Shown here: one piece after another, positions 3,662 through 49,400 of the stretch | Position numbering within the stretch: the first letter of the stretch is position 1 | Layout of the letters: each line of letters begins with the position of its first letter | NCBI GenBank assembly: GCA_018269005.1 | Contig: JAFDVK010000023.1 | Location: forward strand, 1 to 64,000 | Reading direction: 5' to 3' | DNA length: 64,000 nucleotides | DNA from: Acidobacteriota bacterium | GTDB taxonomy: Bacteria > Acidobacteriota > Blastocatellia > Pyrinomonadales > Pyrinomonadaceae | Notes under the pieces: generated by a model | Told to the model about the DNA's origin: nothing | The model's input: the letters and a program-made list of their open reading frames with translations, nothing else | Database searches by the model: none | Made by a program: the position numbers and the translations under genes

Positions 3662-4720
3662 ATGAAATCAGAACTGGAGAATAAAAACTGTCTTATAACC
3701 GGTGGAGCCGGTTTCCTTGGGATAAATCTCATTCGGCATCTGCTCAAAAAAAATTGGAGCCTTACCTCGTTCGACAAGGCAGAATTCAAGTTCGCAGATG
3801 TTACGGATTCGATTACCGTCATATGCGGAGATATTCGTGATCGCGATCAACTGAGTAGGGCAATGTTGGGTATGGATGTCGTTGTTCATACTGCGGCCGC
3901 CCTACCGTTGGACAAGAAGGTTGACATCCTTTCGACCGAGGTCGAAGGGACGCGAAATGTACTCAGCACCGCCTTTGACGCAGGGGTTGAGCGGGTTGTT
4001 CATATTTCATCGACGGCTGTTTATGGGATTCCTGACCATCATCCGCTGGTCGAAGGAGACCGGCTCCAAGGTGTTGGATCTTACGGAGAAGCAAAGATCC
4101 TAGCTGAGAACATCTGTCGAGAATATCGGGATGCGGGCCGCTGCGTACCAATTCTTCGGCCAAAGAGCTTTGTTGGGCCCGAGCGACTCGGCGTGTTTGC
4201 GTTGTTGTACGAGTGGGCGCTCGAAGGGCGAAATTTTCCACTGCTTGGACGGGGAAACAACAAGTATCAACTCCTTGACGTTGAGGATCTTTGCGATGCG
4301 ATCTATCTCGCACTCACCGTCGATGCAGAACGTGCGAACGAAACGTTCAATATTGGAGCAAAGAAGTATGAAAGCCTTTCGACCGATTTCCAAGCCGTCC
4401 TCGATCACGCCGGGTACGGCAAGCACATTCGGAAGCTGCCGGCCGGTCCTGCCGTTGCGGTGCTGAAGCTCCTTGAGAAGCTTGGGTTATCGCCGCTTTA
4501 CAAGTGGATATACGAAACTGCGGACAAGGAATCATTTGTGTCCATCGAGAAAGCTGAGGCGAGATTGGGATTCGAGCCGAGGTTTTCCAATGAGGAAGCT
4601 TTGCTTCGCAACTTTGACTGGTATCGCGAAAACGAATCTCGATTTCGGAATACATCAGGTACGAGCCATACCGTCCCTTGGAGCCAAGGGGTCCTGAGGT
4701 ATGCGAAGCTATTTTTTTGA
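3662..4720 (+). CDS. NAD-dependent sugar epimerase/dehydratase (extended SDR)
   Basis: A 352-aa extended short-chain dehydrogenase/reductase acting on nucleotide sugars. The ATG at 3662 follows an AGGAGG at 3643-3648. The longer in-frame start at 3590 has no such site and adds 24 unalignable residues. Residues 13-20 are the Rossmann TGGAGFLG, followed by VVHTAAA, HISSTAVYG, and the catalytic Tyr and Lys in GSYGEAK. The middle keeps the substrate-loop pattern RPKSFVGPERLG. Likely substrates are UDP- or dTDP-hexoses; the exact reaction (4-epimerase, dehydratase or reductase) cannot be read from sequence. It lies upstream of the UbiA-like gene and is separated from it by a hairpin. Confidence 0.75.
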   Translation: MKSELENKNCLITGGAGFLGINLIRHLLKKNWSLTSFDKAEFKFADVTDSITVICGDIRDRDQLSRAMLGMDVVVHTAAALPLDKKVDILSTEVEGTRNVLSTAFDAGVERVVHISSTAVYGIPDHHPLVEGDRLQGVGSYGEAKILAENICREYRDAGRCVPILRPKSFVGPERLGVFALLYEWALEGRNFPLLGRGNNKYQLLDVEDLCDAIYLALTVDAERANETFNIGAKKYESLSTDFQAVLDHAGYGKHIRKLPAGPAVAVLKLLEKLGLSPLYKWIYETADKESFVSIEKAEARLGFEPRFSNEEALLRNFDWYRENESRFRNTSGTSHTVPWSQGVLRYAKLFF

Positions 4721-22798: not shown

Positions 22799-24070
22799 TC
22801 AACCGTGTCTTGGCTTGCTCGTCCTGGGTCTCAACGCGTATTTATAGAACAGTCTTATAGGTCGCGTCACGTAGTGCAGCGGGGCCAATGCTTGTGGCAG
22901 TGCAAGAACGTTACGATCCGCCTCATTCGGCGTAAAAATGATCCTCAAATACCAGCTTAAGTAGTGGAAGTGCAACTTTATTCGATCGAACGCACGCTCC
23001 TTCAAACGTAAGTGGTCTAAATATCTGTCACCGATCGCAATGTGCTGGGCTTTTGCCGCGAACAAACGATTCTTTGTCTCGGCAGACATCTCGGCAAACA
23101 TCGGACTACTGATTACTGTCTTCCACCGTTCGTCGGGAACCTCAAACTCAAAGAGATCAGTTATCAGCCTCAGGCCAAAGGCGACAACATTCTCGGTGCC
23201 AGCCCTTCTCGACGCGATAAAGAGCTGATCCCAATCGATGCATTCTTTGGAAAGAATGAGCTCATGAACATCACAGACCCAGCCGAATCGCTCCCAACTA
23301 TGTCGTGACCCGTGCAAGCACAAATAGATAAGAAGATCCGTGATGCCGAGGGTTCGCACCGGCGTCCCGGCCAGGATGATCGAGTCGAGTCGATCCCAAA
23401 GCGTGTTGATCTCCATCGGGAGACCGAAATGAGAACCCGACAGTTTCCAATGCAGCTCGAGATTTACATTCCGTTCAGGGTTAACGAAATAGATATCTTT
23501 CTTTCGGCTGATATTCCAGTTTCTCTTTGTCAGCCAGCTTACGCTTGTAAGAGGCTCCCAACCTTTCCCGGTTAGGAGGGTGACGGCCTTATGAAATTGT
23601 TTTGGTTGGACAAGGACATCGAGATCGTTGAATTTTCGATATGAAGGGTCGCCGTAGGCTTCGATAGCGAGCATTGGCCCCTTGAACGGCAAGACGGTGA
23701 TACCATTTGCTCCGAAGAACTTTACCATCTCGAGCAACTCCCGCGTCTGAAGCAAATTGTGACGCAGGTGACACTCTTGCTCCGATTCGAGAGAAGCTTT
23801 GATGTCGGCCGGCAGCTGTTTTGAAAAGCCTTGGATCAAGGTCCTTCCGAGCAATGGCAGAACGGCATTACGCTGAGCAACATTGAGTACGAACTTCCAG
23901 TCAATAGGTTCGGCTAGGGCGGCCGAAATTCGACTTGCGGCCGCTTCCGGGACCGCCGTACGGGAGCAGTCGATGATGAACCGGATCTCGCGGGAATGAT
24001 CGGACGCATCGGGTCCCAGCTGACTTTTTGACTCGTTCTCAGACATTAGATCATCGGAGGATCGCTTCAT
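22799..24070 (-). CDS. Nucleotidyltransferase-family protein of the lasso locus
   Basis: A 423-aa protein starting at ATG 24070, chosen because GGAGA (24077-24081) lies 7 nt upstream; a longer frame to 24127 has no such site. The centre has LPFKGPMLAIEAYGDPSYRK and then NDLDVLV, where D149 and D151 form the metal-binding pair of the polymerase-beta-like nucleotidyltransferase fold. Homologues of this uncharacterised family occur in lasso-peptide loci that also carry an HprK-like kinase, as in the paeninodin type. It may nucleotidylate the peptide or a phosphate on it. It overlaps the ABC gene end by 20 nt. Confidence 0.8.
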   Translation of the reverse strand: MKRSSDDLMSENESKSQLGPDASDHSREIRFIIDCSRTAVPEAAASRISAALAEPIDWKFVLNVAQRNAVLPLLGRTLIQGFSKQLPADIKASLESEQECHLRHNLLQTRELLEMVKFFGANGITVLPFKGPMLAIEAYGDPSYRKFNDLDVLVQPKQFHKAVTLLTGKGWEPLTSVSWLTKRNWNISRKKDIYFVNPERNVNLELHWKLSGSHFGLPMEINTLWDRLDSIILAGTPVRTLGITDLLIYLCLHGSRHSWERFGWVCDVHELILSKECIDWDQLFIASRRAGTENVVAFGLRLITDLFEFEVPDERWKTVISSPMFAEMSAETKNRLFAAKAQHIAIGDRYLDHLRLKERAFDRIKLHFHYLSWYLRIIFTPNEADRNVLALPQALAPLHYVTRPIRLFYKYALRPRTSKPRHG

Positions 24071-25895
24071 ATGACTTCTCCGAAGCAACGAGCATTTGAG
24101 ACTTCCAAGAACTCGCGTAGAAGCCATCTAGGTCCAATAGCTCCTTATGCGTACCTGACTCGATCAACCGCGAATCGCTCATAACGTGGATGATGTCGGC
24201 CCGCATCGCGATCGTGAATCGATGGGTAATTATCAATCCCGTCCGGTCCTTGGCAAGACTAGAGAATCTGTCATACCAATCTGCTTCACCCCAAGAGTCC
24301 ATAAAACTTGTTGGTTCATCAAGAACAAGTATTGGAGACTGTCGAAAATAGGCACGGGCAAGAGCTATCTTTTGCCATTCGCCTCCGCTTAGTTCACAAC
24401 CGGCTTCGAACCATCGGCCAAGCAGGGTTTGATACGTGCTCGGCAGCCCGTCGATAAAGCCGTCCGCCCCTGCGAGTTCTGCCGCGGTCTCGACCTCTCT
24501 GGGCTCGGGAGTCTCTCGCTCATCTCCTAGGCTGATATTACCCGCGACCGTATCCTGAAAATGCAGAGGAAATTGAAAAAGGACCGAGACGTTCCTACGC
24601 AGTTCTTTCACATCAAATTTCCGAATGTCTATGCCATCTACTTGAATGGAACCGGTATCGGGATCATAGAAACGGCAGAGAAGTTTGATCAGCGTACTCT
24701 TCCCGGCGCCATTTTCCCCTACGATGGCAACTTGAGTGCCCGCGGGGACGAACAGATTGAAATCAGAGATTGCCGGCGAATCTGATCTGGGATAATGGAA
24801 TGTAACATCTGTGAATCGGATACCTTCGACAATATCAGTCGGGAACGGAAGCGGCTTTTGCGGAGATACTACACTTGCCTTGAGGTCGAGAAACGCAAAT
24901 AGGCTTTCGAGGTAAAGAGTATTGCTAAAGGTTTTACCAATTGCCCCCAATAGCGCAAGGATGATCGACTGTCCGCGGCTGAAGACTTGATAAAAAACGG
25001 CGAGATCGCCGAGGGAGGCCGTATTGTTGTAAACGCGAAGAGCGATCCAGCCCATCGCGACCGTGCCGGCGGCCAGAGCTAGGAAGTTTGCAGCGATCTT
25101 CCCGCCGGTCTGTTCTCTAAGATGTTTGAGCTTTTCCAGCCGAAGGGTCTTTCGAATCCGTTGGTAGGCACTGCTGAACTTCTGTCCGATCTCGAAGAGG
25201 CGGATCTCAGCAGCCGCATCACTGTGAGATAGCATTCCATCATAATAAAAGAGCCATCGACGCTCCGTAGCGGTCTTACGCCACCAACGAAAATATCGGC
25301 GATCGAACGAAAATGAGATCAAGAGGCTCGGTAGAGAGCCCACGACAAGGAGAATTGGAACGGCCCAGCCGTACACCGTAAGCAGAGCTGCGAAGGAGAC
25401 CAATGTGATCGAGCTTTGGATCACGGTCCCGAAGTTGTCAAGAAGCGCGAGAGGTTTTGATTGTGACTCGCCGCCGGCCTGCTCTCTTAGATCGTGATAC
25501 TCCGGCGAATCATAGTACTCGAAATCAACGTCGACCGCCTTCGAATGCACCAAATTCTTAAGAGTGTCCGCGAAATGCTCTGCCTGCGCGTTCTTAATCC
25601 ATTCAGTTATGTAACGCAGCGAGTCCGCCGCCAAAAGTGTTATACCGGTAAGGACGAACAGCAATACGGTATGCTGCAGGTCAAAGAAGCTCCTGGAAGT
25701 TGTCGATGCTACGAAACTGTCGATCGCAAGTTTTGAGAAGTAAACGGTCGCACCCGGAAGGAGGCCTTGAAAGATGAGCAGAATCGCCCATGCCGTTGTG
25801 TATCCGGGAACGGAATTCCATATCAGAGAAAAGCTCCGCTTCCACAGGCGGCCTTGGCTGCGCAAGTTCTTCAAATGATCTCGAATGTCAAACAT
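24051..25895 (-). CDS. ABC exporter (fused permease-ATPase) of the lasso locus
   Basis: A 614-aa half-transporter. Residues ~25-330 form a six-helix type-1 exporter membrane domain. The ATPase domain has Walker A GENGAGKST around residue 398, the signature LSGGEWQKIALARAYF and Walker B ILVLDEPTS, then the H-loop TGLIITHRF. There is no N-terminal C39 peptidase domain, as expected for lasso exporters, where leader removal is done by the separate B2 protein. It likely exports the mature peptide and gives the producer immunity. Confidence 0.85.
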   Translation of the reverse strand: MFDIRDHLKNLRSQGRLWKRSFSLIWNSVPGYTTAWAILLIFQGLLPGATVYFSKLAIDSFVASTTSRSFFDLQHTVLLFVLTGITLLAADSLRYITEWIKNAQAEHFADTLKNLVHSKAVDVDFEYYDSPEYHDLREQAGGESQSKPLALLDNFGTVIQSSITLVSFAALLTVYGWAVPILLVVGSLPSLLISFSFDRRYFRWWRKTATERRWLFYYDGMLSHSDAAAEIRLFEIGQKFSSAYQRIRKTLRLEKLKHLREQTGGKIAANFLALAAGTVAMGWIALRVYNNTASLGDLAVFYQVFSRGQSIILALLGAIGKTFSNTLYLESLFAFLDLKASVVSPQKPLPFPTDIVEGIRFTDVTFHYPRSDSPAISDFNLFVPAGTQVAIVGENGAGKSTLIKLLCRFYDPDTGSIQVDGIDIRKFDVKELRRNVSVLFQFPLHFQDTVAGNISLGDERETPEPREVETAAELAGADGFIDGLPSTYQTLLGRWFEAGCELSGGEWQKIALARAYFRQSPILVLDEPTSFMDSWGEADWYDRFSSLAKDRTGLIITHRFTIAMRADIIHVMSDSRLIESGTHKELLDLDGFYASSWKSQMLVASEKSYEAILR

Positions 25896-25920: not shown

Positions 25921-26889
25921 CTAGATACCCGAAAATATTGGTTGGCGGAGCGATTTCGTACGTTTCTGATCTAAAATATGCTGCTCAAGGCGAGAGCACA
26001 CGTCATCAATTGTTGTGAAGTCGTGAGGCCGGCTGATCTGGAACGAAGGGACTGCTCGAACAAGTTCCTGACATTGGCGAAAGTGCCTCTCCTGAGCGTT
26101 CAATCTTACAAGATGGTGACCTGCGTGAGTATTCGTTATTAACTCGACAAATGTGCGGCTGCGATCAAGGTCTTCGATCCTGGTGCTATCGTCCTTGTCG
26201 AGAATGTAGAGTGCTCCCAGTTCGACCGCCCCTAGAGGGCTATCGCTCGGACACGAGAACGAATGCTTTTCTATCAATCGGTGTATGAACGGAAGACGAT
26301 CCGGATCGCGTCCCGCCGCGACGACGGAGTCGGGATAGAGTTTTATTCGCGGGTAGCCGGGCAGCGTCCACGCGGTCCCGCCCGCAAAATCGACGGGAAC
26401 GATGTCGTCACTTATCAGTGAGTGTCCGCGGGCGTAAAGGCAGGCCGCTAGGGTCGATTTTCCAAATCCCTTTGCACCCAAGAAGGCGGCGGCGATCCCG
26501 TTTACAACGACACAGCTCGCGTGAAGGACCAAGTATCCCCGTTGGTGGAGCAACGCGATCATTGCCGGGCCAGTAAGAAAGGGCAGCAAGTCTTCCTCAA
26601 GGGCAGCAGGTGCAGGCTCGACGACGACGGTTCGGCCCTCCGTGATCAGGAATCTCCCAATTATCGGCCAATCGAACGACATCGCATGCTCGGATATGCG
26701 TACGCGACATCCGGGAGTTTCGATAACGGGTGTTCGAACGATGCTGTCAAGGTAGTCGTCGGGCAGTGTTCCGAATCGAACGGTGACATCACTTCCATCT
26801 CCACCGGAAATAAGGTCCGGAATTCGTATCGAGGAGTCAATATTCATTCCGTACGCGACGTATGTTGACCTGTTGAAGTTCGAGAACAT
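25921..26889 (-). CDS. HprK-like kinase, lasso-peptide tailoring type
   Basis: A 322-aa HPr-kinase-related protein (ATG 26889; a GTG at 26916 would add nine residues). The N-terminal phrase TYVAYGMNIDSSIRIPDL is typical of the RiPP-associated branch. The core has LHASCV, the P-loop GAKGFGKST at 138-146 and LISDDIVPV with the metal-binding Asp pair. Lasso kinases of this family phosphorylate a serine near the peptide C terminus. The precursor encoded just upstream has Ser52 and Ser53 four and three residues from its end, so it is a plausible substrate. Regulation of HPr is unlikely given the context. Confidence 0.82.
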   Translation of the reverse strand: MFSNFNRSTYVAYGMNIDSSIRIPDLISGGDGSDVTVRFGTLPDDYLDSIVRTPVIETPGCRVRISEHAMSFDWPIIGRFLITEGRTVVVEPAPAALEEDLLPFLTGPAMIALLHQRGYLVLHASCVVVNGIAAAFLGAKGFGKSTLAACLYARGHSLISDDIVPVDFAGGTAWTLPGYPRIKLYPDSVVAAGRDPDRLPFIHRLIEKHSFSCPSDSPLGAVELGALYILDKDDSTRIEDLDRSRTFVELITNTHAGHHLVRLNAQERHFRQCQELVRAVPSFQISRPHDFTTIDDVCSRLEQHILDQKRTKSLRQPIFSGI

Positions 26890-26952
26890 GGATCTTGGAT
26901 TCAAAAGCGAAACCACTGAACTGCTGAGTTAGTGGTCCCGCTTCTGTCATAG

Positions 26953-27032: not shown

Positions 27033-27200
27033 CTAGGGAATTGAAGAGATACCTGTGTTTACCACTTGCAAAATATCGTCTCCAAAACCCAGGTTTTTAC
27101 CTGTGCCTTGAGGACTACCTTGTGTAAGTGAGGCTACATCGCCGTACACGGTAACGTCCGGTTTTTCCCAAGCTAGCTTGGTATCGACTTTTTTCTCCAT
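27033..27200 (-). CDS. Lasso-type RiPP precursor peptide, 55 aa
   Basis: A short gene between cyclase and kinase. ATG 27200 has a perfect AAAGGAGG (27207-27214) six nt upstream. The leader matches the lasso RRE-recognition pattern (Y/W)xxPxLxxxGxxxxxTx with conservative changes: W11, P14, V16, G20 and penultimate T26, giving cleavage after Q27 and a 28-residue core starting at G28. The core begins GSPQGTGKNLGFGDD and ends ISSIP. Core positions 7-9 are Gly, Lys and Asn, so the usual Asp/Glu ring acceptor is absent; the only acidic residues are D41 and D42. Cleavage before G34 would put these at ring positions 8 and 9. Ser52/Ser53 are candidate kinase targets. Confidence 0.85.
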   Translation of the reverse strand: MEKKVDTKLAWEKPDVTVYGDVASLTQGSPQGTGKNLGFGDDILQVVNTGISSIP

Positions 27201-27224
27201 TTTTATCCTCCTTTCTCTGGTTTC

Positions 27225-27320: not shown

Positions 27321-29297
27321 TCAAGAACCAGCAAACGCGACGCGGTGGTCCTCTTGTGCAAATCCAGAGTGCTCAAGCCACTTGATCAAATACATACTTG
27401 TCAAAAGCAAAAGGGCCTCAGGGTCCTTTCGATTGGCATCCATTTTGAACTCGTTGTATGCAGATCGTAACTGGTCCGTATCCAGATACTTTGCGATCAT
27501 CCACGAGTCGCGGCCGATAGCGGCCTCGATCTCGTCGCTCCCATATTTAAGAAGATTCATCTTGATATGGGCGCCAAGATTAGCTTTATCGACCCGCCAT
27601 TGAACGGCTTCGGGTAGGATCCCTTCCATTGCGAAACGAAAGATCGACCGTGTCCATCCCTTATATATCCGTTGACCAGGAGGAAGCGAGACACAGAACT
27701 CGATTAGACGTCGGTCAAAAAATGGGTGCCGCGGCTCGACCCCGAAAGCGGCCGACAACTTTTCAACCTGTTCGTGCATATTCGAAAAGAGTCCCGTCGT
27801 CAGGGAGTTCCAGTGGTGCTCCGCCGGAGTTGGCCATTTTCGAGACGTTTCTTCCCATAGAGCATCGGTTCTCCGGACCAATTCTTCCTGAGTTCTGAAT
27901 GCTGAGTTGACCGAACTCAAGTGCAATGGATGACTGATCTTTGAATCATCGACAATGCTTTCTTTCCAGAATCTAGCAAATCGCCACGCCTTAACGATCG
28001 CTGTCGGAATGGCGGGCTTTAAGCCTTTATGCCAAGCAAGACGCTTGACGGAATGCATTCTTGACGGAATATTCTTGCTCATCGCCCGAGCTTCTCGCAT
28101 CATCCGTATAAACCTGCCGCGCTTTGCCAACTGCTCGAACTCCTGGTATCCGTAGGTAACAGTGGTATCCCCGTCGTGACCCGTAAGCAGACTTCGAACC
28201 CCGTCTGCTTCGCAGCTCTTGAAGATCTGCGAATCCATATAGACGTTAAGGTAGCCGACCGGATGGTCGGTGTGCCAAACGATCTTGTCCATATTTTGGA
28301 GCGGACTCGCGTCGTCGACATTGACAAAGTGAGGGTTAACCTTCGTCTTTTCGATGATCGCCATCATATAGGCAGATTCGTCGATTCTTGGATCCATCTT
28401 CGCCAGCGTTGGAAAGATGGCCGAATACGTGTTCAATGGGTCACGATTCTGCGAGCGAAGGGATCGGTCGGCCACACAAACAACCGCAGATGAATCCAAC
28501 CCGCCAGAGAGCATTGCCCCGATCGGAAAGGCACTGCGAAGGCGGCAATTTACAGCCTGCGAGAATTTTTCGAGAAATGCTTCCTGGTAGTCGGCATCCC
28601 TTCGGAGCTTCAGTTCACTGAATCTCGGCTCCCAACTTTGGGAGATCTTCATGCCGGCCGACGTCACCCTCAAGGAATGGTTTGATGGCAATCGATCGAT
28701 CCCTTTATAAAACGTCGACACCTTATCTTCCGATCTTAGGATCAAGTAGTCTGCAAGGTGTGCCTCGTTGAGTTCCTTCGGCACTTGTTCGATCTGAAGC
28801 AAAGCCTTGATCTCGGAGGCCAAAGCGAAGATCACGCCGGGTCGGTAGTAGTAATAAAAGTGCTTCAACCCGAGCGTATCTCGAGCACAGAAGAGCTTCT
28901 TGTTTGTCGCGTCCCAGATCGCAAAGACAAAATCTCCGATCAGGTGGTGTGGACAGTCTTCACCCCATTTTTCATAAGCCCGAAGTACTATCTCGCTGTC
29001 CGTGACCCTTGAAACTGAGGTGCGGTCAAATGCCAGCTGCTTGAGCAGGTCTTCCCGATTATCAATGCGTGCATCACACGTGATCACGAGTCTGCCGTCT
29101 GCCTTCTGAAGTGGCAATTCTTCGTTCAGCGACTCGGGAGTCGTCCATCTCATTCGATGACCAAGTCCAACATTTCCGCCGATCCAAATACCACGGTCAT
29201 CCCGACCGCGGTGTACAAGCGTATCTAGGGCTTTACTTAGAAGCCGCTCTGAAACAGGTCGGCTATCAGGGTAGAATATTGCGACAATTCCGCTCAT
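27321..29297 (-). CDS. Lasso cyclase (asparagine-synthetase-like, C protein)
   Basis: A 658-aa two-domain protein. The N-terminal glutaminase-like domain starts MSGIVAIF: the position-2 cysteine nucleophile of AsnB is Ser, so glutamine hydrolysis is unlikely, as is common for lasso cyclases. The C-terminal domain keeps the ATP-pyrophosphatase loop SGGLDSS around residue 265, needed to adenylate the side-chain carboxylate before isopeptide bond formation. Its ATG overlaps the B2 stop (ATGA), tying it to the RiPP operon. Contrast the true AsnB at 44636, which starts MCGI. Confidence 0.88.
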   Translation of the reverse strand: MSGIVAIFYPDSRPVSERLLSKALDTLVHRGRDDRGIWIGGNVGLGHRMRWTTPESLNEELPLQKADGRLVITCDARIDNREDLLKQLAFDRTSVSRVTDSEIVLRAYEKWGEDCPHHLIGDFVFAIWDATNKKLFCARDTLGLKHFYYYYRPGVIFALASEIKALLQIEQVPKELNEAHLADYLILRSEDKVSTFYKGIDRLPSNHSLRVTSAGMKISQSWEPRFSELKLRRDADYQEAFLEKFSQAVNCRLRSAFPIGAMLSGGLDSSAVVCVADRSLRSQNRDPLNTYSAIFPTLAKMDPRIDESAYMMAIIEKTKVNPHFVNVDDASPLQNMDKIVWHTDHPVGYLNVYMDSQIFKSCEADGVRSLLTGHDGDTTVTYGYQEFEQLAKRGRFIRMMREARAMSKNIPSRMHSVKRLAWHKGLKPAIPTAIVKAWRFARFWKESIVDDSKISHPLHLSSVNSAFRTQEELVRRTDALWEETSRKWPTPAEHHWNSLTTGLFSNMHEQVEKLSAAFGVEPRHPFFDRRLIEFCVSLPPGQRIYKGWTRSIFRFAMEGILPEAVQWRVDKANLGAHIKMNLLKYGSDEIEAAIGRDSWMIAKYLDTDQLRSAYNEFKMDANRKDPEALLLLTSMYLIKWLEHSGFAQEDHRVAFAGS

Positions 29298-29686
29298 CGA
29301 AGGATGTGTGGACGGGAAGTCATTACTGAGAAGCGTGCCTGTTCAGCAACCCGTCCAAGTACTATCTTGTCTTCAACTTCAAGCCAGGCGTGAGCTTCAA
29401 TGCTTGAATCCTTAGCGGCTACCCCTATCTTAACCCTTGACTCCATGCCGTATGATCTCAATATTCTCTTTGCCGCCAGAGCTTGCGTTAGGCAGGACGC
29501 GAAGGGCACATATCGACTGCATCTTCGAATAGACCGGACGATCTCGGACAACAGTGCTTTGTCGATCGTTTGCCTCGGAAAAACATCATCGGCACCGTCA
29601 TCTATCGCTCGCTTTGTCACGCCTGAGGGGCTCACCCAAAGGCCAAATCGATAGTATGCGAGCCAAAACAGTGAAGTGAGTATCAT
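29294..29686 (-). CDS. Lasso leader peptidase (B2, transglutaminase-like)
   Basis: A 130-aa protein of the lasso B2 family, which cleaves the leader from the precursor. The catalytic Cys65 is in YVPFASCLTQALAAKRIL and His99 in EAHAWLEVED, the usual spacing for this circularly arranged transglutaminase-like fold. A hydrophobic N terminus (residues 1-20) may touch the membrane. Overlaps the cyclase by 4 nt and follows the B1 gene by 37 nt. Confidence 0.87.
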   Translation of the reverse strand: MILTSLFWLAYYRFGLWVSPSGVTKRAIDDGADDVFPRQTIDKALLSEIVRSIRRCSRYVPFASCLTQALAAKRILRSYGMESRVKIGVAAKDSSIEAHAWLEVEDKIVLGRVAEQARFSVMTSRPHILR

Positions 29687-29723: not shown

Positions 29724-30062
29724 CTATTCTTCATCGACTTCTATCAACTCTTCGTCGAGCATCGTTGCCAAGAAGGTTGTTACTTCGTGGTGGCAAGTTG
29801 CTTCGTCAACATCGTAGAGCTGCAACAGAGATGTCTCTATCTCGGCGATCGTGGACGGGGTCTGAATCAGCTTCCATATTGCAAGGCCAACACTGTTAAG
29901 ACCGTAATACTTTCCGTTGACCAGGCTCAGGATAACCGCCCTGGAATCGAGATCCGATATAAGATGCTCGCGAATGGCCTTATACTTTTGCCCACACGCC
30001 CCGTTTTGTGAGGAACCGTTCATTTCAACATCAATAGCTTGTTTTGCTCTAAAACTATCCAT
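29724..30062 (-). CDS. PqqD-like RiPP recognition element (B1)
   Basis: A 112-aa protein whose residues ~30-110 match PqqD-type RRE domains: AVILSLVNGKYYGLNSVGLAIWKLI followed by two helices ending DEELIEVDEE (shown here as separate parts of one domain). In split-B lasso systems it binds the leader and delivers it to B2 and the cyclase. The start is uncertain: ATG 30062 or ATG 30023 (Met14), neither with a clear ribosome binding site. It is the first gene of the lasso operon. Confidence 0.85.
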   Translation of the reverse strand: MDSFRAKQAIDVEMNGSSQNGACGQKYKAIREHLISDLDSRAVILSLVNGKYYGLNSVGLAIWKLIQTPSTIAEIETSLLQLYDVDEATCHHEVTTFLATMLDEELIEVDEE

Positions 30063-30332: not shown

Positions 30333-31355
30333 TTACGTTCGCCAGCGATCCCGGAACACGGTCAGCCCGACTAGAGAACCGCATCCGTACGCAAAATGAA
30401 GAATACAGAAACTTAACGAAACGTAGGCAAGACTTCTTATCCTTGCCTTGGTTGCAATAAGCGATGCCGCCAAATTGGCCGTCACATACGCGCTAACAAC
30501 ACCGGCCAACACAAAAAGGAGCGGACCAAAGAACAAAGCAGAAACGGTCAGGACAAGAATGGAAACAACAAACCCGAACGGAACAAACTGACGGAGACTC
30601 ATTTGCCTTGGGTGAAGCTGCAGGACTCGGACCTTCCAATAGCCGTACTGGAAGTATTGCCGCCATAGGGAGCTAAAGGTTCCCCGGCTAAAATATCGGG
30701 ATCGGATCGTTGGGGACAGAAGGATTCGTCCCCCAAGTTTCCTGATTCGAAAATTGTATTCGTCATCCTGATTTCGCACGAGTTCCTCATTAAATGGACC
30801 GGCCCGCTCGATTATGTTGCGGGTGTATGCGGGAAAGGCGACGGTGTCAGTGAACACTTCGCGGTCCATTACAGTTCGGAAGGCGGACCCACCAACGCCG
30901 AACTTTGAGCTCATCGCTTTCGATATGGCAGCAGCTTTGGCCGTCTCGCCGATAGTCTCTATTGGCCCGCCTACACCGTCGGTCCGGTCCGACTCGAGCA
31001 GGATGACGCAGTTTGTGACATAATTCGGGTCAATCTCACAATGTCCGTCGACGCGAATGATCACATCGCCGGCCGCTTGTTCGATTGCCCGATTGAGGCC
31101 AGTCGGGGCGATCTTCTGAGGGTTGTCCACGATCCTGAACGGGATCTTTGATGTTGCAGCGATCTTGCGAATCATCGTGCGAGTATCGTCAGTTGACATT
31201 CCATCGGCAACAATGATCTCGATCCGATTCTTTGGATAGGTCTGATCGAGTATCGAAGCCAGACAGCGATCGATATAGGCGGCTTCATTTCTAACCGGAA
31301 TAATGATCGATACCAGCGGTTTTTCGCTATTGTCGCTCACCAATGGCCTCCGCAT
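30333..31355 (-). CDS. Glycosyltransferase family 2, ExoA-like
   Basis: A 340-aa enzyme. Start ATG 31355 has GGAG six nt upstream; the longer frame to 31391 runs further into the neighbouring gene without a site. Motifs: VSIIIPVRNEAAYIDRCL, ADGMSTDDT, KIAPTGLNRAIEQA and the DxD-type VDGHCEI. PxKxxxxGLNxAI is typical of ExoA (succinoglycan) glycosyltransferases. Three to four C-terminal hydrophobic segments anchor it. Overlaps the end of the CapK-like gene by 29 nt, so it is part of the same transcript. Confidence 0.83.
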   Translation of the reverse strand: MRRPLVSDNSEKPLVSIIIPVRNEAAYIDRCLASILDQTYPKNRIEIIVADGMSTDDTRTMIRKIAATSKIPFRIVDNPQKIAPTGLNRAIEQAAGDVIIRVDGHCEIDPNYVTNCVILLESDRTDGVGGPIETIGETAKAAAISKAMSSKFGVGGSAFRTVMDREVFTDTVAFPAYTRNIIERAGPFNEELVRNQDDEYNFRIRKLGGRILLSPTIRSRYFSRGTFSSLWRQYFQYGYWKVRVLQLHPRQMSLRQFVPFGFVVSILVLTVSALFFGPLLFVLAGVVSAYVTANLAASLIATKARIRSLAYVSLSFCILHFAYGCGSLVGLTVFRDRWRT

Positions 31356-32721
31356 CTTCGCTCCGAAGATCGAGCTTACTGATAACTGCACGGAACTTGC
31401 CCCTAGAAGTCCGTGGAATCATGGACATTCGCGTAAAATCAATGTCAATATCCCCAAGACGCTCTAGAATCCGTCCTCTTAGGTCTCCAAGAGCGGAGTC
31501 TTCGAAGTCGGCCGCCGGCACGTAGTTGACCGTTATTCTCGACAGGGATTCCTGGACGATCTGGGCTTCCTTGATCGGCAGGTCGCCTTTGAAAACCGGA
31601 TCCATTCGCCCGACTCGCCGACCGTCCTTGGTGAACAATGTGTCATCCGTCCGACCGGAGATGTTGTCGATAACCGGAAGGGTTCGCCCGCACTCACATT
31701 TGATCGATGATAGCCTGCCGCTATCGCCAACCCTGTATCGAACAAGGGGCATATCAGCATTCAATAGGCCGGTACAAATGAAATCAGAGGTCTCGTCATC
31801 GCCGGTTGCTTCGATGATCCCAACTTCGGGCCATTGGTGTAGCCGCCCAATTTCACACTCGCCAGCAGCGGCCACTACCTCTGCCAAGCCGTAAGTCTCT
31901 CGAACTGGACACCCGAAGGCCGTTTCGATAACATCTCGCTGAAATTTGTAAACTGGTTCGGCGTTAAGAATTACTACCACGAGACCCGATATCCTTTTCC
32001 CTAGTCGGATGGCATCTGAGGCAAGGGCATAGATAGAGGACGGATAGCCCAAAAGATATCGGATGCCATGCTTTTCGATTGCGTCTATGTACGCTGGTGT
32101 GTTGCGGGCCGTCAGGTGGTATGAAGACATGTACAGCTGATTGAGCCCGGAGTTCCAAACCCAGAAAGGCGGCTTGGTTTGATGCACTGGCGCGACCAAT
32201 TGTCCGCCAAAGATCGCCCACCTGTCATGTCTTGAAACACCATACCACTCTCGCGACCGAGCCTCGAAAAGGGAATACCACTCCCTTACCGTCTCCTTTT
32301 TTATATAAAGCGACAAGGATGTTCCTGTCGTGCCGCTTGTGTGGTCATGAAACATTCGGCTCGGATTGCAATCATCAGCAACAAAAGCGAGTGGGTCGAC
32401 GCGAATTGCTTCTTTCTCCAGAACATCCCAGTTCTCCAGGACTTCCCACGATGACCGGTCTCCGCGCTCGCGACGTTTTGCCCATTGCCGGCGATAAAAT
32501 GGAACTTGCGTCGCCGCTCGATGGAGCACGAACTTGAGGCGCTCTGATCGCCATTCATCCCAATCACGTTCGCTCCAGATCTCGCGCTCAAGAGCGGCCT
32601 TTACCAAAGAATCCGTTTCATTGCCATAACGCCAACGATTTAGATAATGGCCGCGAAGGCTCGCAGCCAAAGATCTCGCCGGTGGCGGAAGAAGCTTATA
32701 CAAAGTGTATGCCGCAGACAT
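31327..32721 (-). CDS. CapK/PaaK-like AMP-dependent ligase
   Basis: A 464-aa adenylate-forming enzyme of the phenylacetate-CoA ligase/CapK family. The nucleotide-binding P-loop is HTSGTTGTSLSLY. Later motifs are ETYGLAEV and the zinc-ligand-like segment IKCECGRTL before DNISGRTDD. CapK-type proteins are common in capsule loci, where they are presumed to activate a carboxylic or amino acid for attachment to sugar. It shares one base with the preceding GT4 gene. The activated acid is unknown. Confidence 0.8.
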   Translation of the reverse strand: MSAAYTLYKLLPPPARSLAASLRGHYLNRWRYGNETDSLVKAALEREIWSERDWDEWRSERLKFVLHRAATQVPFYRRQWAKRRERGDRSSWEVLENWDVLEKEAIRVDPLAFVADDCNPSRMFHDHTSGTTGTSLSLYIKKETVREWYSLFEARSREWYGVSRHDRWAIFGGQLVAPVHQTKPPFWVWNSGLNQLYMSSYHLTARNTPAYIDAIEKHGIRYLLGYPSSIYALASDAIRLGKRISGLVVVILNAEPVYKFQRDVIETAFGCPVRETYGLAEVVAAAGECEIGRLHQWPEVGIIEATGDDETSDFICTGLLNADMPLVRYRVGDSGRLSSIKCECGRTLPVIDNISGRTDDTLFTKDGRRVGRMDPVFKGDLPIKEAQIVQESLSRITVNYVPAADFEDSALGDLRGRILERLGDIDIDFTRMSMIPRTSRGKFRAVISKLDLRSEDAEAIGERQ

Positions 32722-44635: not shown

Positions 44636-46390
44636 TCAGCCCGATGCGCCTAACGGTCTTGCCGTGTGCGTCCCTATAAGCCCAAGGCTTATCCACTGCC
44701 AAATAAAGAAGCTGTTATCAAAGCCGCCATCGAAGAATGCCATTGCTTCTTTCCTAACCAATCGCCGATCCAGATACGATCCAAGCGGTCCCGAAAGGGA
44801 AGTGTTGATCATCGAGCCGGCCCATTCACGCAACGGCCCGCGAAGCCATTCACGTTGGGGTGTCTGAAGCGGCCTTTTGGGCGGATCTGCTACTGCCTTT
44901 GGCAGGTAGTTCCCAGCGATCTCCCTTAGCATCTTCTTGCGTACGCCGTCCTTGATCTTCCGATCGTCTGGTTGCCGCATTGCGATTTCGAAAAGGCGAT
45001 GGTCCAGGAACGGCTCGCGGAGTTCTGTTGCCGATCGCATCGAGATCCGATCGTTAAAACGCATCGCCCGAGGGATCTTTGTAAAGCGGATATCCCGGTA
45101 CTGGAGATTTCGCAGTCGATCCGGGAAAACGGTCGGCGAGTCGATTTGTTTCGCAAGAGATCGAAGTTCCCGGACGAGGCATTCCGGCCGAACGGGGCGG
45201 TCCTTTATGCCCTGCACTAGGCCGGCAGAATGCCCATTGTTCGCAGCGTCGTAGTAGTCGTAGCCCGCCCATTGCTCATCCATTCCGTTGCCGTCAAGAA
45301 GCACCGTAACTCCGTTTTGCTTGGCAAATTCAAAAAGGCGGGCGTAAGCCAAGGTTGGAAGGCCGCCGAAAGGTTCATCCTGGTGTGCTTGGACATCTGC
45401 GGCGAGAGTCGGGACGTCCGATGGAGCCAATTGGCATACAACAAGGGGATGCCGTGTCTGCGCAAGCATTTGTTCGACCCATTTCAGCTCATCATAAGCA
45501 TCGTCACCGGTAGTAAAGGTAAAGGTCTTTACATCGCTCTCGTCGCCCTGAACTTTGTGGACCAAGCCAAGAAGACTTGATGAATCGAGACCGCCGCTTA
45601 AATTGATCCCGACGGGCACATCCGATCGGAATCGGAGAGTTACGCTCTCCTTCATCAGTGTGAAATACTCTTCTCTTACCTCATTCTCGGGCCTGTCGTC
45701 GAACTCAACCCCTACTCTTTCCGCAAGGTCATACCATTTCCTGATCTCGATCTTTCCGTCTCTGATCTGAAGGCAATGGCCGCCCGGCAGCGAAGTTATT
45801 TGCGCCCAGAAAGTTCGCTCCGCATGGTCGTAAAGGCCGTGAGCAAGATACGTCGCCCACGTTTCGTCGTCAGGCGTCGCAGGTATGCCCGCCGCGTGCA
45901 GAGCCTTGATCTCACTGGCAAGAAGGACCGTTCCATCGACCTCTTGGTGGTAGTAGAGAGGCTTAACTCCAAAACGATCTCTCGCTGCAAATGCGGTCTT
46001 CTCTACCGTGTCCCAAATAACGAAAGCGAACATCCCTACGAGGCGATCCAGACAATCCACGCCCCATTTGGTGTAGGCTGCCAGCAGAACCTCTGTATCC
46101 GAACTTGTTCGGAAGGAGTAATCGCCGGCAAGCTCGTGTCTGAGTTCTAGGTAGTTGTAGACCTCGCCATTCTGGACTATCACGAACCGCCCGTCAGAGC
46201 TGATCATCGGCTGATCCCCGCCCGCGGATAAGTCGATTATGCTCAGCCGATTATGTCCAAGCACTGCTTTCCGTTCTGCGTCGACGTACAGGCCGACACC
46301 ATCCGGGCCGCGGTGCGCTTGACTGGCTCTCATCGCCAACAGTCGATTACGGCTGCAGCCATTTCCGATGATCGCGCTAATTCCGCACAT
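44636..46390 (-). CDS. asnB: Asparagine synthetase B-type glutamine amidotransferase
   Basis: A 584-aa enzyme. ATG 46390 gives the required MCGI start, freeing Cys2 as the glutaminase nucleophile; a longer frame to 46501 overlaps the NRPS gene. Residues include QAHRGPDG and QNGEVYNY in the glutaminase domain and SGGLDSSSL (~265) in the synthetase domain. In polysaccharide loci such enzymes (WbpS-like) amidate uronic acids or related carboxylates rather than making asparagine. It follows the NRPS gene by 22 nt and precedes the export genes. Confidence 0.85.
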   Translation of the reverse strand: MCGISAIIGNGCSRNRLLAMRASQAHRGPDGVGLYVDAERKAVLGHNRLSIIDLSAGGDQPMISSDGRFVIVQNGEVYNYLELRHELAGDYSFRTSSDTEVLLAAYTKWGVDCLDRLVGMFAFVIWDTVEKTAFAARDRFGVKPLYYHQEVDGTVLLASEIKALHAAGIPATPDDETWATYLAHGLYDHAERTFWAQITSLPGGHCLQIRDGKIEIRKWYDLAERVGVEFDDRPENEVREEYFTLMKESVTLRFRSDVPVGINLSGGLDSSSLLGLVHKVQGDESDVKTFTFTTGDDAYDELKWVEQMLAQTRHPLVVCQLAPSDVPTLAADVQAHQDEPFGGLPTLAYARLFEFAKQNGVTVLLDGNGMDEQWAGYDYYDAANNGHSAGLVQGIKDRPVRPECLVRELRSLAKQIDSPTVFPDRLRNLQYRDIRFTKIPRAMRFNDRISMRSATELREPFLDHRLFEIAMRQPDDRKIKDGVRKKMLREIAGNYLPKAVADPPKRPLQTPQREWLRGPLREWAGSMINTSLSGPLGSYLDRRLVRKEAMAFFDGGFDNSFFIWQWISLGLIGTHTARPLGASG

Positions 46391-46412
46391 GCTGAAAAAA
46401 AAGAAACCCCTG

Positions 46413-49400
46413 CTAGGCTGCTGCGCTCCGGGCGATATCTCGCGACCAAGCATCCTTTCTTGATTCGACTTCTTCGAATTTCGCCGCCAGGTCGGCTGCA
46501 TACGGATGGACCGTCAAAGCTCCATGGGATCCTTTCACAACTTCCGTTACGACATCTCCATCGACAAGCTCTGCCCAGCCAAGACTTGGGTCAAACTTTG
46601 TGTTCTTGGGCTGTTCGCTCGCTCTGAAGATCGTAATGTCACCCGCATAGCGTCCGGGTCTATAGGCGTCGAGAGCCCGCTGAATCGCTTCGTGATTCCG
46701 CATAACGTTGACCGGGAGGTCACGGCCTGTTGCCCGGTTGTACTCGATCGCGAACTGGTTTTTTTTCCAGATCACTTTTCTCTTCAAGCTCTTCTTCACT
46801 TTCTGTCCTTTGCTGATGACAAAGTAAACGCGGTCCTTCGTTGACTTGATCTCCCGCAGCTGGGCAATAATGGTTCGAATGTGAGCGATGAACCGTCCCG
46901 TACCCGCACCACCGGCCACGGCGTGTTCGTCCAAATAGCCGGGAGCATAAGTATCAAACAAGCCTAGAGTCTCTACTTTCTCCCCTAGGCGCTCGAGCTG
47001 AACTGCGATCTCAAATGCGACCAATCCCCCAAACGACGAACCACAGACCCGGTATGGGCCGACTGGTTGGAGTTTTCGCATCTCATCGAGATAATCGGCG
47101 GCCATGTCCTCGACCCTATCGTGGGCTGTTTCGGCCTTGTCGGCGACACCACGCGCCTGTAATCCGTAAACCGGCTGGTTCGCCCCCATCTCCCTCGCCA
47201 GATCTCGATAGAACAGAACATTCCCGCCAGCAGCATGAACCAAAAAGATCGGTGTCCTCGCTCCCATTGTCTGAAGGGGAACAATATACTTCCACGAGGC
47301 CTTATGTTTTTCTTCACAAATGAACTGTGCGAGCTGCTTGATCGTTGGAGCATTGATAAGGGTCGAAAGTGGCAAGTCGAGATGAAAGGTTTCTTCGATC
47401 TCAACGAAGAGGCTGACCGAGATAAGAGAATCACCGCCGAGATCAAAGAAATTGTCCGCAACTCCGATCGGGCTGAGATCCAGCAACTTTTCCCAAATAT
47501 TTATCAGCTTGGCCTCCACCTCGTTCTTAGGTGCTTCGAGTCTCCGTGAAGCTTCGAGAGGCACAAGACTTGGAGCCGGGAGTGCCTTTCGATCAATCTT
47601 TCCGTTCGGTGTGATCGGGAGCGCGCCGAGCTCGATGAAGGCAGTCGGTATCATATATTCGGGGAGCTTTGCCTTTAAGAAGCTGCGCAGCGAGTTTGCC
47701 TTTACGGAACCTGGCGAATCTGCGACAAAATAGGCGGTAATGCGTTGCGAGCCGCGTTGATCCTTGATCGCCACTACGACTGCTTCGATGATCTCGGTGT
47801 GTGAGACGATCGCGGTCTCGATCTCACCCAATTCGATTCGAAAGCCTCGGATCTTAACCTGTTCATCTATCCGATCAATGAAGACGATACTCCCGTCCTG
47901 CAGATACTTTGCCCGATCACCTGTCCGGTAGAGCCGGAGGCAGCCTCTTCCTTCAATTTCGTGGTTAATGAATCGTGCTGATGTTAGGTCAGGTCGATTC
48001 CGATATCCACGCGCAAGGCCAACACCTGCAATGTAGATCTCACCGGGGATGCCGATCGGCACCGGCTGCATCTCTTGATCCAGGATAAACACCTCTGTAT
48101 TGTCTATTGGGCGTCCGATCGTCGGAGATTCTGAGCTTTCTGGATCGACTATCTCGCATGTCGTTACCACCGTGCTTTCAGTCGGTCCGTAATGGTTGAC
48201 GAGGTTGAAAGAGATCGGTTCACCGCCAAAGGCATGAAGCCGATCGCCGCCTGTTAACAAGGTCCGCAATCTCAGGTCAGCCGGCATGACGGTCGTGAGC
48301 AAGGCTTCGGCCAATGGGGTCGGAGCAAATGCAATCGAGATACTGTTGTCAGAGAAGTACCTGAGCAATTTTGACGGTGTTCTCCGTGTATCGTCGTCGG
48401 GAACATATATGCAGGATCCTATACAAAGGTACGGCCAAAGCTCCCACACTGATGCATCGAATGCGGGCCCGGCCAACATCGTTGCTCGATCTTCGGAAGA
48501 TATTTTATAGCTCCGTTGGTGCCACGCAACCAGATTCATGAGCGAGCGATGTTCGACCTCAACTCCTTTTGGTTCGCCGGTCGAGCCGGAGGTGTAGATC
48601 ACGTAGGCCAAGTTGTTCGGGCGTGCGGTCAATTTGTTGTCCCAAGTGACTTGATCTGAAAGTGAGTCCGAAAGGGATTCCGCAAAAATAACCTCACATT
48701 TGGTCTGTGGGAGGCGTTCCAGCAGATGTTCTTGAGCTATCAAAACTCTTGTTCCGCAGTCGCGGATCATAAAGTCCAGCCGTTCTTTCGGTTGGGCAGG
48801 GTCCAGCGGAACATAAGCTGCGCCTGACTTTAGTATCCCAAGCAATGCAGTTACCATATCGACCGAACGTTCCATAAAGACTGCAACAAGAGATTCTCGC
48901 TGTACGCCGATAGCATTTAATCGACACGCCAGCCGGTCGCTTCGCCGATCCAATTCCGCATACGTTAGCTCACTGACGTCCGAAACTACGGCATTCTTGT
49001 CAGGGAATCTTCGAGCCACGTCTGACACAAGCCGATGCACGCAAAGATCTTGTGGAAAATCTCGTGAGGTGTTGTTCCACTCGACCAACTGCCGTTTCCG
49101 CTCGTCCGGCTGAAGTAGAGGCAGCGTCGCAACCGCCCTTTCCGGCTCGGCCACGATCGACCGTAGCAAGGAATTGAAATAACGATCCAGACGCAGAACC
49201 TCGTCAGGCTTGATCATGGCGGAGTTGTACACCCAGTAACCCTCTCCATTGTCAGAGATCAGCATCGAAAGAGCGTTTGCCGACGTAGGATGATACTCAG
49301 GCAGATCAGGGTTCATTGAGATAGTTACGGGTATCCCATTCAAGAGCATATCGGCCGCGAGCGGACGGATCTGCGGATATCTCCAAAAGATATCAGCCAT

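Follow-up and report, generated by a model that had tools for sequence, protein, structure and literature searches.

In the definitions that we consulted (for example PMC10368454), the ring of a lasso peptide closes on the N-terminal amine and uses an acid at core position 7-9. In a 64,000-nucleotide stretch of a Pyrinomonadaceae (Acidobacteriota) genome, hereafter the window, we find a precursor with a lasso leader whose core holds no Asp or Glu at these positions. This locus raises the question of which bond, if any, its cyclase would form.

The precursor and its gene cluster

The precursor is encoded by a short ORF (27200-27033, minus strand) and reads, leader then core, MEKKVDTKLAWEKPDVTVYGDVASLTQ / GSPQGTGKNLGFGDDILQVVNTGISSIP. 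Its parts are as follows.

27033..27200, minus strand: precursor gene A, 55 aa (ORF, NF033521 match at the cut-off, same-genus orthologues)
27120..27200, minus strand: leader, residues 1-27, with W11, P14, V16, G20 and T26; predicted cleavage after Q27
27036..27119, minus strand: core, residues 28-55, under strong purifying selection
27207..27212, minus strand: ribosome binding site AGGAGG

The original prediction, made from the DNA letters and their translations, held that the leader fits the lasso pattern and that the ribosome binding site is good, and we agree on both counts. The leader scores 19.4 bits against the NCBIfam model NF033521 (lasso_leader_L3; curated cut-off 19), it contains the lasso signature [YW]xxPx[hydrophobic] as W11-x-x-P14-x-V16 together with a Thr at -2 (T26), and AGGAGG lies 6 nt 5' of the ATG. 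Across 23 precursors the W/Y, P, G and T of the leader are invariant or nearly so. With a cut two residues past the conserved Thr, core positions 7-9 are G-K-N and the acids fall at 14 and 15, exactly as had been read from the translation; close relatives likewise lack Asp or Glu at positions 7-9.

The precursor protein is 100% identical in two other genomes of the same genus, and in two further genomes the precursors are 85-87% identical and the cyclases 76-77% identical to those of the window. Over the whole core, the window and L034 differ by 11 synonymous changes at 21 sites and by 2 non-synonymous changes at 63. Among five genomes the amino acids of residues 28-48 are constant while their codons vary; for instance, residues 28-34 and 35-42 show zero amino-acid changes, with 7/15 codons varying. 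Because codons vary and amino acids do not, we conclude that the core is under strong purifying selection, including the part that precedes Lys35. This selection and the orthologues rule out a chance ORF or a degenerate precursor. Homologues with another start or frame had been named as grounds for rejecting the gene model; the Shine-Dalgarno sequence, the leader match and the codon-level selection all support the present frame and rule out an alternative. These data confirm the 55-aa ORF as a lasso-type precursor that lacks the customary ring acid.

With the window sequence as query, we found no second precursor in its genome. Viral contigs contain matches to the pattern, but none of them encodes a relative of the precursor. 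A search of the phylum with the leader-rich profile A1 returned, besides known precursors, mostly canonical precursors or noise.

The surrounding genes run in one direction, in the order AMP-binding protein, glycosyltransferase, B1, B2, LasC, A, HprK-like kinase, MsbA-like exporter and PF14907 nucleotidyltransferase. Those that make up the lasso cluster, besides A, are listed here.

29724..30062, minus strand: B1, PqqD-like leader-binding protein (NF033536, E 1.7e-23)
29294..29686, minus strand: B2 leader peptidase (NF033537, E 1.3e-22)
27321..29297, minus strand: lasso macrolactam cyclase LasC, 658 aa (NF033535, E 2.7e-207; Asn_synthase)
25921..26916, minus strand: HprK-like kinase, presumed peptide Ser kinase (TIGR04352, E 4.6e-10; PF07475, E 1.9e-7)
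24051..25895, minus strand: MsbA-like ABC exporter (D)
22799..24127, minus strand: nucleotidyltransferase (PF14907, E 1.6e-56)

B1, B2 and an asparagine-synthetase-like cyclase, the set that marks a lasso cluster, are all present, and A is followed by the HprK-like kinase, exporter and nucleotidyltransferase that mark the paeninodin type; the kinase matches, both to general HprK models, are under the curated cut-offs, and the gene occupies the same place in relatives. With B1, B2, the cyclase, A, the HprK-like kinase, the ABC exporter and the nucleotidyltransferase, the paeninodin-type cluster is complete. The annotated start of the nucleotidyltransferase (24051-24127) overlaps the exporter gene by 77 nt, and a later start is likelier. 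The AMP-binding protein (31327-32721) and the GT2 glycosyltransferase (30333-31391) keep their position before B1 in most Blastocatellia relatives. The flanking genes encode glycosyltransferases, O-antigen-ligase-like proteins, a sugar transferase and an aminotransferase, and therefore we place the cluster in an exopolysaccharide locus. Paeninodin-type clusters and the linear LPP peptides are likewise reported from polysaccharide loci (PMC13381572, 2026). The same locus holds a second asparagine-synthetase-like amidotransferase (44636-46501) that is apparently unrelated to the lasso step.

Lysine, glycine and aspartate in the cores

Two segments of the core bear on the question of the bond.

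27099..27119, minus strand: residues 28-34, GSPQGTG, predicted to remain as a free N-terminal tail; of differing length from family to family, sequence unchanged in 5 close relatives
27075..27098, minus strand: K35-N-L-G-F-G-D41-D42, predicted ring from the K35 side chain to the D41 side chain; K at D-6 and G at D-3 conserved

In nine Blastocatellia precursors, all of which adjoin the same set of cluster genes, K35, G38, D41 and D42 never vary. The number of residues from the leader Thr to the Lys is not constant, which places the first D of the DD pair at core position 11, 14 or 16. The homologue search suggested by the original prediction, which asked after D41, D42 and G34, gave a divided answer: D41 is the conserved acid, G34 is not conserved, and outside Blastocatellia the place of D42 is taken by Gly, Ser, Thr or other residues.

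For a comparison beyond this group, we started from a cyclase alignment, gathered 78 loci by cyclase similarity, blind to their precursors, and only then read the precursors. Asp or Glu occurs at core 7-9 in 79 of the 100 distinct cores, canonical cores having Asp at 8 or 9. Outside Blastocatellia, a Lys six residues before the Asp is found in 14/15 cores without Asp or Glu at 7-9 versus 8/76 canonical cores, and in a scan of all residue/offset pairs this was by far the best separator. The full motif KxxGxxD occurs in 12/15 versus 4/76 (Fisher p 2e-9, also outside Blastocatellia), and shuffled cores yield a mean of 0.26 of 15 with a maximum of 3. That Lys at Asp-6 sets these cores apart suggests that the Lys side chain closes the ring.

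The motif is found in hosts of at least six phyla, among them Acidobacteriota, Cyanobacteriota, Chloroflexota, Rokubacteria, Sumerlaeota and a deltaproteobacterium. In a total of 26 motif cores, Lys lies at D-6 in 26/26, Gly at D-3 in 24/26, and the Asp anywhere from core 8 to 20 behind a pre-Lys segment of 1-13 residues; the Lys count is only descriptive because these cores were chosen by motif or cluster membership, the real test being the comparison outside Blastocatellia, and the motif-core counts overstate independence because the cores share ancestry. In four of them the Asp sits at a canonical position, at exactly 9 in the cyanobacterial L091, L092 and L115 and at 8 in L081, and here ordinary N-terminal closure fits as well as Lys closure.

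The position of the Asp is not diagnostic by itself, since a few cores whose Asp lies at 11 or further on also adjoin canonical-type cyclases. In the first example, the Aphanothece core GGGLNSSQPLDADFTTYLPLSGT (L151:8208-8438) has its first Asp at 11 and a residue other than Lys at Asp-6; an 11-residue ring or a shifted cut is possible. In a second, the second precursor of L207 (ORF frame at 3866; RGAGRTPGAGDGQFRSAA) has Asp at 11 and Arg at Asp-6, and it lies next to a canonical-type cyclase and a precursor with an ordinary Asp8 core. In a final example, Rubrobacter taiwanensis (L084:7878-8087) has a long Gly/Pro-rich core with K..S..D and its first acid at 33.

Cysteines occur in several motif cores. 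L148 (5409-5654) has the longest pre-Lys segment, 13 residues, with Asp at 20 and four Cys, and is possibly a disulfide-rich relative. Two conserved Cys in the pre-Lys segment of L078 (8055-8306) and L037, within QCxPPxCKPK, suggest a small disulfide loop inside a free tail. A pre-Lys Cys is matched by a partner Cys near the C-terminus in L077 and in the upstream core of L093, a hint that the front segment is retained in the product.

A cyclase insertion that accompanies the motif

A scan of alignment columns identified a feature of LasC that accompanies the precursor motif.

28386..28400, minus strand: LasC residues 300-304, an insertion confined to cyclases with Lys-motif precursors

All 23 Lys-motif cyclases carry 4-5 extra residues between TFSAIFP and a conserved DE, and the insertion is absent from the canonical lasso cyclases that we checked and from four more distant outgroup cyclases; some distant AsnB-like proteins have other, unrelated loop lengths at this site. 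With the insertion, the region reads FPxLxxxxxRxIDE. L206 had been left out of the discovery of the insertion; its cyclase has it and its precursor has the motif (EGSIPDKVYGSSDG), which brings the count to 24/24 complete motif-paired cyclases. Residue 529 is also distinctive, being Arg in 23/23 Lys-motif cyclases and mostly Lys in canonical ones. L093 has a complete canonical-type cyclase followed by a canonical precursor, and a Lys-motif precursor that follows a second, incomplete cyclase at the contig start. Since the Lys-motif precursor belongs behind this partial cyclase, L093 is not a true exception.

Precursor type tracks the cyclase tree, with 4 changes over 85 rows and 2 once the insertion columns are removed. 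Throughout the cyclase alignment the PP-loop SGGLDSS and Lys571 of LasC are invariant. A search for a solved structure of a lasso cyclase from the LasC group found only AsnB-like relatives. On balance, we take the insertion to lie in the ATP-binding synthetase domain and to mark a dedicated cyclase subfamily.

Proposed ring closure and its relation to known systems

Based on the precursor and cyclase sequences, we think it probable that this cyclase subfamily closes a ring between the Lys35 side chain and Asp41 and leaves residues 28-34 as a free N-terminal tail. The chances also lean toward a wider picture, that of a widespread and distinct lasso branch in which insertion-marked cyclases join a Lys side chain to the Asp six residues on, behind a free N-terminal tail of variable length. 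In the scheme that we propose, B1 would bind the leader via W11-x-x-P14 and B2 would cut after Q27, the site that we infer from the conserved Thr position two residues before. LasC would adenylate the Asp41 side chain, and attack by the Lys35 epsilon-amine on the activated Asp41 would give a Lys35-Asp41 isopeptide. Residues 42-55 would form the loop and tail, presumably threaded. By analogy with paeninodin and the Bsf lasso peptides, which are phosphorylated (PMC10368454), the HprK-like kinase probably acts on a tail serine, with S52 and S53 as candidates.

The predicted ring comes to 26 atoms (7 from Lys, 3 from each of five residues, 4 from Asp), within the range of 25-29 given by N-terminal closure on Asp8 (25), Glu8 (26), Asp9 (28) or Glu9 (29). 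A Lys-Asp bond accounts for a Lys that never varies and keeps its distance, and for a pre-Lys segment that is free to change. Counting against it, B2 and the Thr at -2 are retained, though a Lys-initiated ring does not strictly depend on a free N-terminus, and the Lys might serve for recognition and not as the nucleophile.

Recognition is the role left to the Lys if the N-terminus is displaced, which we regard as unlikely but as the most serious alternative: a second cut before G34 (or T33), after or instead of that by B2, would allow an 8- or 9-residue ring to D41 or D42. The original prediction had put cleavage before G34 first. Such a ring would be of canonical size, and the three cyanobacterial motif cores in which a cut set by Thr(-2) places the Asp exactly at 9 speak for it. 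However, the residue that would have to begin the ring is variable both at Asp-7 (N, G, T, P, L, M, R, I and others) and at Asp-8 (K, V, Q, I, P, F), G34 itself is not conserved, and the Thr at -2 is kept. Among close relatives residues 28-34 vary no more than the ring does, the paired Cys of L077 and of the upstream L093 core suggest a product that still includes the front segment, and among homologues of the window's cluster genes, which the search covered, no extra peptidase was seen.

The same Lys35-Asp41 lactam could also form with the tail unthreaded, giving a branched-cyclic product with a single amide ring, graspetide-like but made by a lasso-type cyclase. It rests on the same evidence as the threaded form, as sequence cannot reveal threading, yet we give it still less weight: the remaining lasso machinery is unaltered, the ring has as many atoms as threaded lasso rings do, and the 13 residues past D42 suffice for threading. 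A linear phosphorylated peptide without any ring, as in the LPP family (PMC13381572), is very improbable. The HprK-like kinase, nucleotidyltransferase, MsbA-like exporter and polysaccharide locus are common to LPP clusters, but those lack a cyclase, whereas here a well conserved cyclase with an intact PP-loop and Lys571 adjoins A in relatives. Least probable of all is an enlarged ring of 14-15 residues from the G28 amine to D41 or D42, also put forward originally, which requires neither a new nucleophile nor a second cut but would have one enzyme subfamily make rings of 8 to 20 residues; a one-residue change in ring size is reported to cut production strongly (PMC13352647, 2026 review), and the invariant Lys would go unexplained.

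With the Lys35-Asp41 ring as the preferred reading, the third suggestion of the original prediction, that the product is not a classical lasso, came nearest; its expectation of unusual chemistry is probably right, although it overlooked K35, the residue whose spacing sets these cores apart. Because the definitions consulted call for N-terminal closure and an acid at 7-9, mining rules built on them would miss or misread Lys-motif precursors. In the open-access literature we found no report of a Lys-initiated lasso ring. If true, such a ring would mean that leader removal and ring closure are no longer coupled, would leave the N-terminus free to carry tags, fusions or a second function, and would amount to a new substrate rule, one that goes with an insertion visible in the cyclase.

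Graspetides carry side-chain lactones or lactams made by ATP-grasp ligases. The bond predicted here, side chain to side chain, is of the same kind; the enzyme fold differs, the window cyclase being asparagine-synthetase-like, and a Pfam scan found no ATP-grasp ligase among the cluster proteins. LPP clusters (PMC13381572) share the kinase, nucleotidyltransferase, exporter and leader recognition; they differ in having no cyclase and a signal-peptidase-like protease in place of B2, whereas the window has both the cyclase and B2. Metanodin (PMC12670498) is alike as a reported lasso peptide with an unprecedented ring residue, but this is an Asn at position 1 with N-terminal closure at the normal distance and no Lys side chain involved. 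Cyanobacterial and Chloroflexi Asp8/Asp9 clusters with NF033535-like cyclases share the gene order and cyclases that are ~40% identical, whereas they pair cores that have the Asp at 8 or 9 with cyclases that are free of the insertion. Closest are the paeninodin-type lasso clusters (PMC13381572), which have the same genes (B1, B2, C, A, kinase, exporter, nucleotidyltransferase), the Trp in WxxP and the polysaccharide setting; the window differs from them in its lack of Asp or Glu at 7-9, its Lys-Gly-Asp motif, its seven pre-Lys residues and its cyclase insertion.
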